In this document: one piece after another, positions 1,117-8,960 of the stretch | Layout of the letters: every line of letters begins with the position of its first letter | How positions within the stretch are numbered: position 1 is the first letter of the stretch | DNA from: Daucus carota subsp. sativus | Lineage: Eukaryota > Streptophyta > Magnoliopsida > Apiales > Apiaceae | Direction: 5' to 3' | Length of the DNA stretch: 64,000 nt | Assembly (NCBI RefSeq): GCF_001625215.2 | Contig: NC_030386.2 | Span: 23,220,545 to 23,284,544, forward strand | Program-made: the position numbers and the translations under genes | The notes under the pieces: model-generated | Seen by the model: only the letters and a program-made list of their open reading frames with translations | Told to the model about the DNA's origin: nothing | The model's database searches: none

Positions 1117-4100
1117 ATGGAGTATAACAGTGGATATATCGACGGAGGATATGGAGCTTTCACATTCAAGGTACTTGTAATTGTTCTTTGGTTAAATGTA
1201 TGTGATGCTTGAGTCCCAAAGATCAGCATGTCTTTTAGTGAAAATGATTTTGCTATACTTTCACTAAATTATGAAAGTGATTTTGCTATACTTCCATTAA
1301 ATTCCTACGGCTGAATGCAAGTTGTCTAAAGGTTAAATCTTCGTGAAATTGCACAGGACTTATATTTATTTAAGCTAATTGCAGTTATTTACTCATAGAC
1401 CATAGTAATTGATAAGTAATTTACCAATATGAGATTTAAGCCTTGGAGCACACCGTATAATTAGCTATGCAAACGAATCAGTTTTATTAATTCCCTATGT
1501 TCACTTGCTAGCCCATATGATTGCCCTTTGTTTACTTTCCATCACATTATATTTTGTTACAGATTAATCCAAATAGAACATTTGAACTCCTATGTGACCC
1601 AAATGTTGATTTCAGTAGATGGTGATTAATACCGACTACAGCATGCAGAATGTTCTATTTTTCACATTATTGTCTTTATTTTGTAGTTGATTTCCTGATA
1701 ATTAATTACTTTTCCTACTTGTTGCTGTGTGCAGAATCCACTGTCAGAGTACGAGAACGAAGATGTACACTATGCTGCTAATTATACTATCCCAGAAGCA
1801 AACAGTCCAGAAATGAATTCTGAGGGTGAGCAACTTATTGTTCGAACTGTAAGCTGAAATGTTTACTAATATGCAAGTAGGTCTTGATATTATTGTTTCT
1901 TGTTATATGTAACTTTAAACTTTCTTGGTGTGTCAAACATGTCATGTATCTTGAATCATGAACTTCCAGAATTTTTACCTCTAATATTGTAATGTTGACC
2001 GTGATTTAATTAATTCTTACACACCGTTTTGCTAATATGATGAGAATGTATAATATGAGTTGAATTCTATGGAGTACACTTATCTGAACTACTAACTGGA
2101 GACTTGGAGCCATCTGTGTCCTGCAACATGTTCATCTTTTGTTTTACAATATTTATATGCTTGAACATGTTGCAGGACATATTTGTATTGAATTAGTGCT
2201 CCGTATAAGATATTTCGCAATATTTGCAGGATATATATGTCTTGAATTAATATTCCACACATATAAGATATTTTGTAATATTTTCTATACAGAATATGTT
2301 GCAGGACGTATATTTCTTTAAGTAGTACTCCATGTAAGGTCCTTATCCATCATTCTAAGTTTTCACTTATGACGCAGAGTCTTCGTATACAGAGGAAGAT
2401 GAACAACACACGGGATCTATCCAAGGAAGTATGAAATATATAGATGAATCGATGAGGTTAAGGCGGTGCAAACCTTTATTTCTGATATCTACATTTTTAT
2501 ATTACCTGTGCATGCATTCTTGGAATATAAGTGAATTGTGAAGTACTTAAATGTTTGGCTCATAATAGATGAGTATCTGAAACATATTTGCACAGCATAA
2601 ATAGGTTTTTACTGGCAAAATATATCTTTTCAGGAAAACAAGCATGACTAAAGGAAAAAGATGGTGGGGAAAACTATTTAGCGGCCTAAACATCATCAAG
2701 AAGTTTAATTTGTTTGATGCGGCATCATGGTAATATTTATCCTGCATATGGTATATTCAACAGTCGAGAGACATCTCCCATTAGAATTTGATTGAGTCAA
2801 CCTTTTTACAGGGAATCTTCCACATCAAAATGGGATTATAACTGTCAAGCTGATAAAGTTTGTGATGTTTGTGAGGAAGCAGTAAGTTTTCTATGTTACA
2901 TGTTATTTATAAAAATTTTACGTGTACACCAATCAAACAATGTTTTCAGTTGACTACTAGGTTAGTCATAATGCAAAAGGCACAAAATTTGTCTGATACC
3001 TTTGCACTTCTCCAGTTTTTATCAACCAAAACATTGATAGAATCGATAACGTGGTAGCAACTGGTTCTGGCACTTATACTTTATGATCAATCTACAGATA
3101 CATTCTAGTTGGGTAACCCGTCCCTATTGGGGTCAGATAGTCTGTTACAAACATATATCAGATGGGACTCCGATGTGCTGCAGCTGTTTAAGATTCAAGG
3201 TTTGTGGTAGAGATTCTCCACTACACTAGAAATATACTTTGAATTGTTGAAAGCAGATATAATATACCTAGTTTTAATTTAGAACAAAAAGAGTGGTCTT
3301 CCGTCTTGTTTGCACATAGTTACAAATTTCCAGATGTATGTTTAAGTTGGAAGGACTCTTTTCCTTCCGATCTGTGAATGTGGTGTTTGCAGTGAGCAAC
3401 AGGTTTCCCAAACTTCTGCAAATTTAAGACTACTAAATCGGTTGTGTAAGTAGCTAGGACAAAAAAATGCCGAAAGTTATAGCTAAAAAATTAATCTTGC
3501 TTCTTTTCCTTTCTTCCATTGTTTCTTTTTAAAAATCATCCCATATTTTGAAATTATACTCTACTTGAGCTTTGCAGTTAGGGAACACGAGATATATCAA
3601 CCTCAGTGATGGTCGAAAACTTTGTTCTGAGTGTCACTCCACAGCAATAATGGATACTGAGACATGCATTCCCCTTTTTCAAGAAGTCTATAGATTTTTT
3701 GAAGGATTAAACATGGAGATCATCAAGGATATACCAATTTTCTTAGTTGATAAACATGAGATTAACAAGATTCGTTATGAATTTGGCGGAAAGGTGCATA
3801 CATGTTGTACTATGTTTGATCTTATAACAAGTGCATTGTTCTACATCTAAAACTTTGCTTAGTTTTTAATGTTGTTTAATCAATCATTACTGTGACAGGA
3901 CCATCCAGGATACCCATTGGGTATGGCCACATGTAGAGCAGGACTGGTTGTGCAGAGTGTAAGGATTTCATTGTTTCTCCTTTTCATATATTATTCTTTC
4001 AAGGAGCACGGAATAAGTTCAGGAAATGATAATATATACTTGTTTGTGTGCATGCTTTTTATATCGATACATAAGGTTTAACTAAATCATCACTCGTTGA

Positions 4101-6025: not shown

Positions 6026-8960
6026 ATGGAGTATAACGATGAATATATGAATGCAGGATATGGAGCCTTTTCTTTTGAGGAGGTAACCTCAGTCCCCAGT
6101 TGTTGTGTTGTTGGTATCCAGAGATGGTGATTGACAATTTACTAGAGTGTACAGAATGTCTGTTTTTCGCATCATTGTCGTTATTTTGAAGTTGATACTT
6201 TATCAAGCGTATTCCCTTCTTGTTGTTGTTGCAGGATCCACTGTCGGAGGATGAGAACGAAGATATACACCATGCTGTTGAACATTTTATTTTTGAATCA
6301 AACAGCTCAGAATTGAGTTTTGAGGGTGAGCAACTGAAGCTAATTTTCAACTGTAAGCTGTATTGTTTTAGTATTTAGTATCTAGTTATAACTCAAAAGT
6401 AAGTTACTAATTTCTAAGTCTGTCGAATATGTTCTGTCTTCTGAATCATGAATGCCCCAAAATGTTACCTGAAATAGAGAATCATGTAGAATAGTAAATA
6501 CTGCTCCAGATGAACAAAAGAATGACATGTAAAATAGTACATTATCAAAGATGCTTTACTCAAGTTTTATCTTTCCAAATTTTTCTATGATGCAGAGTCT
6601 TCTTATACAGAGGAAGATGAACAACTCACCGCGCCTACACAAGGCAGTATGGAACATTCAGATGAATCCACGAGGCAAAGGCGGTCTGGAAACTTTCTTT
6701 CCGTATTAACATTTTTTATATCACTCATGCATCGATTCTTGAATGTAGAAAAAAAATGTTGTCACTCAAGTACATATCTGTCTAACAATAGGTGATTACG
6801 TTACATGTTTTCACAGCATTTAGATTTTACTCGCAAATTATATCTTTTCAGGAAAGGAACCCTGACAAAGAGAAGGAGCTGGTGGAGAAAACTATTTAGC
6901 AGCCTAAACATCTTCAAGAAATCTAAGCAGTATGATGAAGCATCATGGTAATATTCACAGCCTATTACTGATATTCAAGAGAAACCACCAGTTAGAATTG
7001 ATTGCGTTAACCTTCTTGCAGGGACTCTTCCTCATCAGAATCGGACTCCAACAGTCATGTCGATCAAGTCTGTGATCTCTGCGATGAAGCAGTAGGTTTT
7101 CTATTTCAGAAGATATTTACTAATATATTTTTTTAGTTTTTAGTGTATGATCCAATGGGACAATGTTTTAAATTAACTTTTAGATTAGCCATAATGCACT
7201 TATGCAAAAGGTATGAGATTTTCTAATTATCAGGCACTTCTCCTATTATTATTAACTAAACATACTGAGACTTGAGAATGAAGCACTAATTAGTTCTGCT
7301 ACTTACACTTAGTGATTTATTAACAGATGCCTTCTAATCGGTTATTGCCTTCCTATTGGGGTCAGAAAATCTGTAATAAACATGTGTCAGATGGGACTCC
7401 GATGTGCCTCAGCTGTCTCAGATTCAAGGTTTGTGGTGGTGATTCCCAGCAACACCAGCAAAATACTTTAAATTGATAAATAGAGATATATTATAACATG
7501 TTTTAGATGCCATTGTGTTTGAATATCATTATAAATTTGCTGAAGTTGGGTAAACTCTCTTGCTTTCACACTACTGATGGTAGTGTTTGCCAGTAAAAGC
7601 TTTAACAAACTTACAGGACATCTCAGATTAATGAATCGGTTTGCAAGTAGAACAAGAAGATGCCAGAATGCAAGTTGTAGCTGAGGAATTAATCCCGCTT
7701 CTTAGATATTTTAGTTTTTCCGTGTTTTTAATGCTAAAAATCATCCATTTCTTGAAATTAAACTTCACTTGATCTGTGCAGATAGGAAATATGAGATATG
7801 TCAACCTCAGTGATGGTCGAAAACTTTGTTCTGACTGTCATTGCACAGCAGTAATGGACCCCAAGACATTCATTCCCCTTTTACGCGAAGTCTATAGATT
7901 TTACAAAGGATTCAACATGCAGGTCATTGAGGATATTCCAATCTTCTTAGTCGATAACGAGGAGATGAAAAGAATTGCTCATGAAATTGGCGGAAAGGTG
8001 TGTACATATGCATCATGCATGTCTGATCTCAGAACAACTGCACTGTCCTAACTGTCACACTTCGAGTATTTGATGCTGATCAGTTAAACCCTTACTGTGT
8101 TATAGGACCAGCCGGGATACCCAGTGGGTGTTACCACATACGCATCAGGATTCGTTGTGCGGAGTGTATGTGATCCTGATAAGCCCTCCTCTTTTTCTTA
8201 ATTTTCTTATAAGGAACACAAGACAAGTTCAAGAAAATATGTTATATGAATGCTTTTGGTATTAATGAACAAGGCTAACTTATATAAAACTCATGTAGTA
8301 AAAATTCTCATGTTCAATTCTAATTCAGGTTGCGAGGTCATACCAGAAAGGGGAAAACATTCATGTTGTGAAAGAGGTGCAGTACATAGAACGTATATAT
8401 GAGGTGACATCAATGCTGATAGTGTATGGTTTCCCCAGGTCTACACATCTCTCGTGTTCGATTTCACTTCCCACTTTCACAAAGCACATCTCTTATTTAC
8501 TACAATTCTGTCATCCATGCTGACAGGTTAGCCTTAGGCGCAACCATGGCTCATGAGATGATGCACGCATGGATGCGCATTGAAGGTGATGTTCTCTTCC
8601 TTGGCCTCTCTAATCGGAAAAATAAAATGAATCAAGTTTGCTGATTATGATGTACAATTTGGATCTGAGTGAATAGGGTACAAAGCAGGACTAAGAAAAG
8701 AAGTGAATGAAGGTCTGTGTCAAGTAATGGCACATAAATGGATAGATTATTATGCATTTGTTGGAGATGATTTCTTACACACTACACCAGACCAAGCTGA
8801 GTTTCTGAGGAACTTGAAGGAGGTTTTGAAAAATGAAATAGAAATTAGAATGGACAAAATTTATGGTGGTGGTTTTAGAGATGCTAAATGGGCTATTGAG
8901 AGATATGGCTTGAAGTATACAATGTCCCATGTGGCTCATACTGGAAACTTTCCTCGATAA
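6026..8960 (+). CDS. DA1-like LIM/zinc-metallopeptidase protein, tandem copy B
   Basis: Exons: 6026-6082, 6235-6325, 6596-6683, 6852-6947, 7022-7091, 7327-7428, 7782-7997, 8106-8165, 8329-8438, 8527-8585, 8677-8960, giving 410 aa. Exon lengths are identical to copy A except the first (+3) and last (+3), so this is a tandem duplication with all introns kept. HEMMH falls at about 306-310, followed by a glutamate-containing NEGLCQVMAHKW helix. Zinc ligands are present in CDLC, CNKH, CLSC and CSDC. The UIMs and the first LIM domain of canonical DA1 are again absent. The donor of exon 3 (CG|GTCTGG) is weak but needed to keep frame with the conserved next exon. The frame is open throughout, so the copy looks functional. 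It probably has the same biochemical role as copy A. Confidence 0.88.

Follow-up and report, generated by a model that had tools for sequence, protein, structure and literature searches.

DA1 is a much-studied regulator of organ and seed size whose peptidase, as described in PMC5322733, stays latent until BB and DA2 ubiquitylate the protein in a manner dependent on its ubiquitin-interacting motifs (UIMs). According to the same source, Arabidopsis DA1 with both UIMs mutated neither cleaved BB in vitro nor complemented, and in the UIM mutants of Dong et al., where Ala and Ser were changed to Gly, mutation of UIM2, not of UIM1 alone, abolished ubiquitin binding (PMC5322733). Among the Arabidopsis members, DA1, DAR1, DAR2, DAR6 and DAR7 are described as having a UIM and DAR3 (AT5G66640, 450 aa), DAR4 and DAR5 as having none (PMC9400066), the status of DAR2 being disputed, with no UIM according to PMC4246497 and one listed in a table of PMC9400066. 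Six cotton DA1-like proteins without UIMs are described in PMC8173226, which also refers to Li et al. 2008 for DA1 forms of rice and maize that lack both UIM and LIM (a second-hand statement), and the DA1/DAR genes of foxtail millet are given 10 or 11 introns in PMC6470693. Here we describe two such genes, A and B, which lie in tandem in a 64,000-nucleotide stretch of the carrot genome (Daucus carota subsp. sativus; C6:23220545-23284544), hereafter the window. UIM-less DARs are already published, and A and B are a divergent addition to the known DA1/DAR family. Genes of this kind may be missed by surveys; for example, the melon survey reported in PMC12864510 dropped candidates without UIM and LIM domains, a filter that would remove genes like A and B. 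In text passages of open-licence papers, no account came up of UIM exons that decayed where they stood in a gene that had also lost the motif around R358; among the matches listed, nothing on point came up for DA1 work in carrot, and only PMC5322733 bears on a bacterial origin of DA1.

We read A and B, with a probability of about 0.58, as tandem DAR zinc metallopeptidases whose UIMs have decayed, whose first LIM domain (LIM1) has been lost, and which would thereby be freed from UIM-coupled activation. The original prediction of an intact tandem pair of DA1-like genes was borne out: each gene has 11 exons, the spliced frames contain no internal stop, and GT-AG borders are present at 10/10 introns of each (20/20 together). 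Scores of 153.8 bits for A and 148.5 bits for B against PF12315 (cut-off 25) establish the presence of the DA1-like C-terminal domain. The two proteins are 68% identical over their whole length and, as had been predicted, their exons have equal lengths except the first (54/57) and the last (281/284), which differ by one codon each (9/11 equal). The tandem homology spans the gene bodies including introns, which align at 54–72% identity, so that the duplication took place at the genomic level, in line with the whole-gene duplication originally proposed. Own-genome searches covered 441 Mb in 11 contigs; no further tandem copy on C6 was present among the 41 matches listed, these counts being lower bounds.

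Besides A and B, the PF12315 search of the same genome returned 15 exon matches in three loci, C7 (L009), C3 (L010) and C5 (L011), which were modelled by hand as canonical paralogues of 528, 507 and 526 aa, respectively, without internal stops. The exons of A and B correspond one to one with the 11 exons of C7 and C5, whereas C3 has one extra 5' exon, and intron phase is shared with C7 and C5 at nine of the ten introns, only the exon 4/5 intron having changed phase. Identity in the shared core is 33–40% between A/B and the canonical three, compared with 68–79% among the latter. In Pfam searches, LIM (PF00412) scored above the cut-off in all three canonical paralogues and UIM_2 was matched in all three at E values of 1.7e-4 to 3.7e-4, which exceed the curated cut-off in only one of them. 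The same library gave no UIM or LIM match in A and B, either with whole proteins (E 1) or with the N-terminal 133–134 residues (E 10); since it scores the canonical paralogues, a failure of the search does not explain this absence. Low-complexity insertions were observed in two of the paralogues: in C7, a Glu-Pro repeat precedes UIM2 (L009 3858-4137), and in C5, a repeat rich in Gly and Asn follows it (L011 2656-2986).

Similarity between exons was judged against 2000 shuffles and is given as the number of shuffles scoring as well, in the order C7, C5, C3. Exon 2 of A and B runs from phase 0 to 1 and exon 3 from phase 1 to 2, as in C7 and C5, and A, B and C7 share an exon 2 length of 91 nt, that of C5 being 85 nt. 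Compared with the UIM1 exons of C7 and C5, exon 2 was equalled by 0–66 of 2000 shuffles, and by 49 with the DAR2-like C3; compared with the UIM2 exons, exon 3 was equalled by 0–2 (C7 and C5) and by 52–80 (C3), whereas the crossed pairings (exon 2 with UIM2, exon 3 with UIM1) gave 51–1947. Because both sequence and intron phase match the canonical paralogues, we read exons 2 and 3 as canonical DA1's UIM1 and UIM2 exons, respectively, whose cores have decayed. In the alignment, the Ala of UIM1 is kept in both genes and the Ser is replaced by Thr in A and Phe in B; in UIM2, the Ala is replaced by Ser in A and Pro in B, the Ser is kept in both, and a Leu has become His in A. It should be noted that a UIM2 residue is altered in the C3 paralogue too, where the Ser is Asn, which cautions against over-reading the changes in A and B. 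The original prediction held that the UIMs are lacking and had been replaced, with the first LIM domain, by about 110 residues. The lack of UIMs stands insofar as Pfam finds none, although the exons that would have encoded them are still present with altered motif residues; replacement does not hold for them, and only exon 4 has no recognisable source.

The first LIM domain, unlike the UIM exons, is on the present comparisons truly lost. Its absence had been predicted, and it was recovered neither in the proteins nor in the 9.8 kb upstream of the genes. When the canonical N-termini were searched against these 9.8 kb and window positions 1-9000, the best E value for a missed upstream UIM/LIM1 exon was 0.58, and the best matches were exon 3 of A and exon 3 of B; a LIM pattern scan of the same regions found nothing, this being a weak control that recovers only one of three canonical LIM domains. 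Exon 4 occupies the position of the first LIM1 exon and has neither a recognisable source nor a cysteine in either gene. Three candidate origins or roles for this exon were tried and rejected. A copy of canonical exon 1 (MGWLxKxxKGS) was equalled by 41–1358 of 2000 shuffles over six comparisons (41 being B against C5), a decayed LIM1 exon by 426–1799 over six comparisons, and as an amphipathic helix the exon has an ordinary hydrophobic moment, its best 18-mers being equalled by 307 and 572 of 5000 shuffles.

Fourteen relatives (L012-L025), all from bacterial metagenome-assembled genomes, emerged when bacterial and archaeal genomes were scanned; 13 of these were aligned with the five plant proteins, the fragment L021 being dropped. 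Requiring identity in no fewer than 15 of the 16 rows from bacteria and canonical plant paralogues left 24 conserved columns. Both A and B keep 23 of them, the exception being a Leu to Val change. Among those kept are HExxH, the Glu downstream of it and, in the LIM-like module, seven of the zinc-ligand positions; at the eighth, A and B have Cys as in plants, and bacteria mostly His. All four CxxC/H pairs of this module are present in both genes, so the HEMMH and single LIM-like module of the original prediction were recovered. The spacing from HExxH to Glu is 17 in B, 16 in A, in all three canonical paralogues and in 9/13 bacterial rows, and 15 in the remaining 4/13; because it varies among rows, the loop is suggested to be tolerant. 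The proposal that B is catalytically dead through its HEMMH-x16-NE arrangement is weakened, as only 3/13 bacterial rows have a Glu at the first place of the EE pair, whereas the second Glu is invariant at a spacing of 15–16. On this evidence, the predicted zinc peptidase core is intact in both A and B.

The bacterial relatives L012-L020 and L022-L025 belong to several phyla. By eye in these 13 sequences (L023 partly masked), most have a hydrophobic N-terminus and, ahead of the LIM-like module, one or more further LIM modules. Since L022 has no other LIM module (by eye), the LIM-like and peptidase core can apparently stand alone. Given these N-terminal features, the bacterial DA1-like peptidases are probably exported. 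Modelled with AlphaFold, one of the bacterial relatives (L016 with eight others) reached a mean predicted local distance difference test score of 89.6; a search for PDB sequence relatives of B gave three matches, none meaningful (best E 0.25).

A further departure from the canonical type lies in exon 8. In Arabidopsis DA1, the third CxxC/H pair contains C274, and da1-1 alters R358 (PMC5322733). All three canonical carrot paralogues share only one Cys and Arg with the 84-residue distance of C274 and R358, namely, the final Cys in CCSC and the Arg in PETRGLC; this Arg is therefore most likely R358, a place assigned from sequence. An Arg at this place is present in 4/13 bacterial rows and absent from 9/13, which marks it as a feature of the plant proteins and not as something that catalysis requires. 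In addition, the peptidase domain of C7 and C3 contains a serine-rich stretch, of which C5 has a short version and which is missing in A and B. The features of both genes are collected in Table 1.

Table 1. Predicted features of genes A and B; positions are those of the window, and shuffle counts follow the order C7, C5, C3 unless stated.
Feature	Position	Strand	Details
Gene A, short DA1-related gene	1117..5120	+	11 exons, 408 aa, PF12315 E 5.5e-45
Gene A exon 2, read as decayed UIM1 exon	1735..1825	+	phase 0->1, 91 nt; 0, 27, 49/2000 shuffles
Gene A exon 3, read as decayed UIM2 exon	2378..2465	+	phase 1->2; 1, 0, 80/2000 shuffles
Gene A exon 4, basic, cysteine-free	2634..2729	+	position of first LIM1 exon; phase 2->2 not 2->0; 136-1442/2000 shuffles or more as good against LIM1 exon or canonical exon 1
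Gene A exons 5-7, LIM-like zinc module and start of peptidase domain	2812..3793	+	C127 C130, C149 H152, C160 C163, C183 C186
Gene A exon 8, site of plant motif PETRGLCLSEEQT, motif lost	3899..3958	+	Leu at inferred R358 place
Gene A exons 10-11, HEMMH-x16-E zinc peptidase site and C-terminal domain	4690..5120	+	H305, E306, H309, E326
Gene B, tandem copy of A	6026..8960	+	11 exons, 410 aa, PF12315 E 2.3e-43
Gene B exon 2, read as decayed UIM1 exon	6235..6325	+	phase 0->1, 91 nt; 4, 66, 49/2000 shuffles
Gene B exon 3, read as decayed UIM2 exon	6596..6683	+	phase 1->2; 1, 2, 52/2000 shuffles
Gene B exon 4, basic, cysteine-free	6852..6947	+	place of first LIM1 exon; best 41/2000 (C5 exon 1), other five 426-1590
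Gene B exons 5-7, LIM-like zinc module and start of peptidase domain	7022..7997	+	C128 C131, C150 H153, C161 C164, C184 C187
Gene B exon 8, site of plant motif PETRGLCLSEEQT, motif lost	8106..8165	+	Val at inferred R358 place
Gene B exons 10-11, HEMMH-x17-E, one residue longer	8527..8960	+	invariant Glu kept, E328

The A+B lineage is fast-evolving yet under overall constraint. Its branch measures 1.28 changes per column compared with 0.07–0.10 for the canonical tips, and within the pair B has 0.29 and A 0.062, the tree leaving the joining point of A+B to the canonical three unsettled. These lengths could reflect relaxed genes that are decaying, with B ahead of A, an explanation that we regard as unlikely. 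It agrees with the count of private changes at outgroup-constant core columns (14 in B and 6 in A), a difference that is not significant (chi2 3.2; in a looser relative-rate count, 16 and 9, chi2 2.0), and with the existence of seven genomic loci carrying partial B-like copies. When these copies serve as third reference across 621 coding sites, the changes private to B comprise 11 nonsynonymous and 6 synonymous, which do not differ from neutrality (p 0.23, small numbers), whereas those on A or the older B stem comprise 58 and 32, which do (p 0.003). Nevertheless, the per-site ratio is 0.51 for the B-private changes and 0.50 for the older ones, and since the latter value departs from neutrality, the result for B may only lack power. 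Decay is further opposed by the intact frames and splice sites of 20/20 introns, by the 23/24 family positions kept, and by the ratio of nonsynonymous to synonymous rates (dN/dS) of the pair, 0.41 (NG86; bootstrap 0.29–0.56), with 30/18/62 differences at codon positions 1/2/3. The dN/dS check suggested with the original prediction thus shows coding constraint on the pair; for present-day B taken alone, the counts agree with the claimed constraint and with neutrality alike. By region and with two methods, dN/dS is 0.31–0.34 in the peptidase (bootstrap 0.19–0.52), 0.47–0.68 in the N-terminal part (0.29–0.87) and 0.61–1.07 in the LIM-like module (0.28–1.45); the canonical C7/C5 peptidase gives 0.07 at a dS above 2.

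Equally improbable in our view is that A and B are weak or inactive competitors, which would dimerise or share partners with canonical DA1/DAR and blunt them as da1-1 does DAR1. The motif and the inferred R358 place are indeed lost in both genes, DA1(R358K) has lowered peptidase activity and da1-1 interferes with DAR1 as described in PMC5322733, and the LIM-like module is kept. However, retention of the catalytic and zinc positions, together with the lowest dN/dS in the peptidase domain, is unexpected for a pure decoy; the fold does not require the Arg, which 9/13 bacterial relatives lack; and the candidate partner surfaces, LIM1 and the UIMs, are gone. The fast evolution and tandem duplication of A and B would also suit a free-standing form related to defence, serving as guarded target or decoy by analogy with DAR4, where a UIM-less DA1-like domain is known in fusion with an immune receptor (TIR-NB-LRR), but nothing specific links the pair to the DAR4/5 subgroup, and we hold this explanation to be very unlikely. 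A bolder version of the preferred reading, which we advance only tentatively and find somewhat doubtful, is that A and B have shed a eukaryotic layer of ubiquitin-dependent latency (UIMs, LIM1 and the R358 motif) and returned to a LIM-like plus peptidase core such as some bacterial relatives have, being constitutive or answering to another switch, with the UIM exons as fossils.

Under our preferred reading of A and B as peptidases freed from UIM-coupled activation, the ancestor would be an 11-exon gene of the DA1 type that kept its LIM-like zinc module and zinc peptidase site while its two UIM exons decayed in place and its first LIM domain disappeared. The products would presumably cut proteins as DA1 does. 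Having the same catalytic core but no working UIMs, they would not be switched on in DA1's way: E3 ligases such as BB and DA2 could not recruit and activate them through UIM-coupled ubiquitylation, and what controls them now may be their expression level, their partners or a different trigger. The changed motif in exon 8 and the lost serine-rich stretch suggest substrates different from those of DA1. On the most economical reading, the peptidase is under other control and probably has other substrates, and the different control suggested in the original prediction appears probable given the lack of a functional-looking UIM and of the first LIM domain. As natural variants with a kept catalytic core and decayed UIMs, the two genes offer a direct way of asking which part holds the peptidase latent, the UIM/LIM1 region or the core.

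Several points weigh against this reading. B has an extra residue between HExxH and Glu (17 compared with 15–16 in the other 17 rows), and its private changes are indistinguishable from neutral. The regional bootstrap intervals of dN/dS overlap, so the peptidase is lowest by point estimate only. The activity of A and B could be low, because Leu or Val occupies the inferred R358 place, at which Lys lowers DA1 activity. Finally, a ubiquitin-binding surface of another type may escape a motif search.

The seven loci with partial B-like copies (L034-L040; C8, C5, C8, C9, C5, C1 and C7) contain gene pieces with introns that cover approximately exons 4-10. Their exon pieces match B at 84–100% identity, gaps or stop codons interrupt some of them, and they look like dispersed gene fragments. 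L036 and L037 with their neighbours form a unit of ~8.5-9.6 kb at C8 ~2648512-2656995 and, in the opposite orientation, at C9 ~28120312-28129946, the aligned pieces of which are ~99% identical. This unit carries B-like exons on both strands, a frame resembling, by eye, a subtilase fragment, and inverted TCTATGGAGACC near both ends; a 77-base end recurs at 27 places among the matches listed with 79–100% identity. From these features, the unit looks like a gene-capturing transposon.

Elsewhere in the window, a tRNA-Gly(GCC) gene at 278-348 precedes gene A by ~0.8 kb in the same orientation, the C/D box snoRNAs SNORD25 and snoR12 adjoin each other at 24969-25206, and an exact direct repeat of 226 bases occupies 62446-62671 and 62889-63114. 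Long open reading frames on the minus strand at 10030-17673 resemble what we take to be a HAK/KUP potassium transporter gene.

Compared with the canonical DA1/DAR1/DAR2 type, A and B share the exon plan, the LIM-like module and the PF12315 peptidase with HEMMH or HELMH-x16-E, but differ by decayed UIMs, no LIM1, no PETRGLCLSEEQT motif and no serine-rich stretch of the C7/C3 type. Their intron number agrees with that described for foxtail millet DA1/DAR genes (PMC6470693). Among the Arabidopsis proteins, DAR3-5 are likewise DA1-like without a UIM, and DAR3 is similarly short, as far as can be compared by published description only, whereas the DA1-like domain of DAR4 is described as fused to an immune-receptor part (TIR-NB-LRR). 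The six cotton proteins have, according to PMC8173226, similarly lost the UIMs and kept the DA1-like domain, but unlike A and B they keep the LIM domain. Outside plants, the bacterial LIM and DA1-like peptidases share with A and B the LIM-like module and a HELMH-x15/16-E peptidase (13 of 14 loci aligned), whereas most of them have, by eye, a hydrophobic N-terminal segment and extra LIM modules, L022 having the LIM-like module only.

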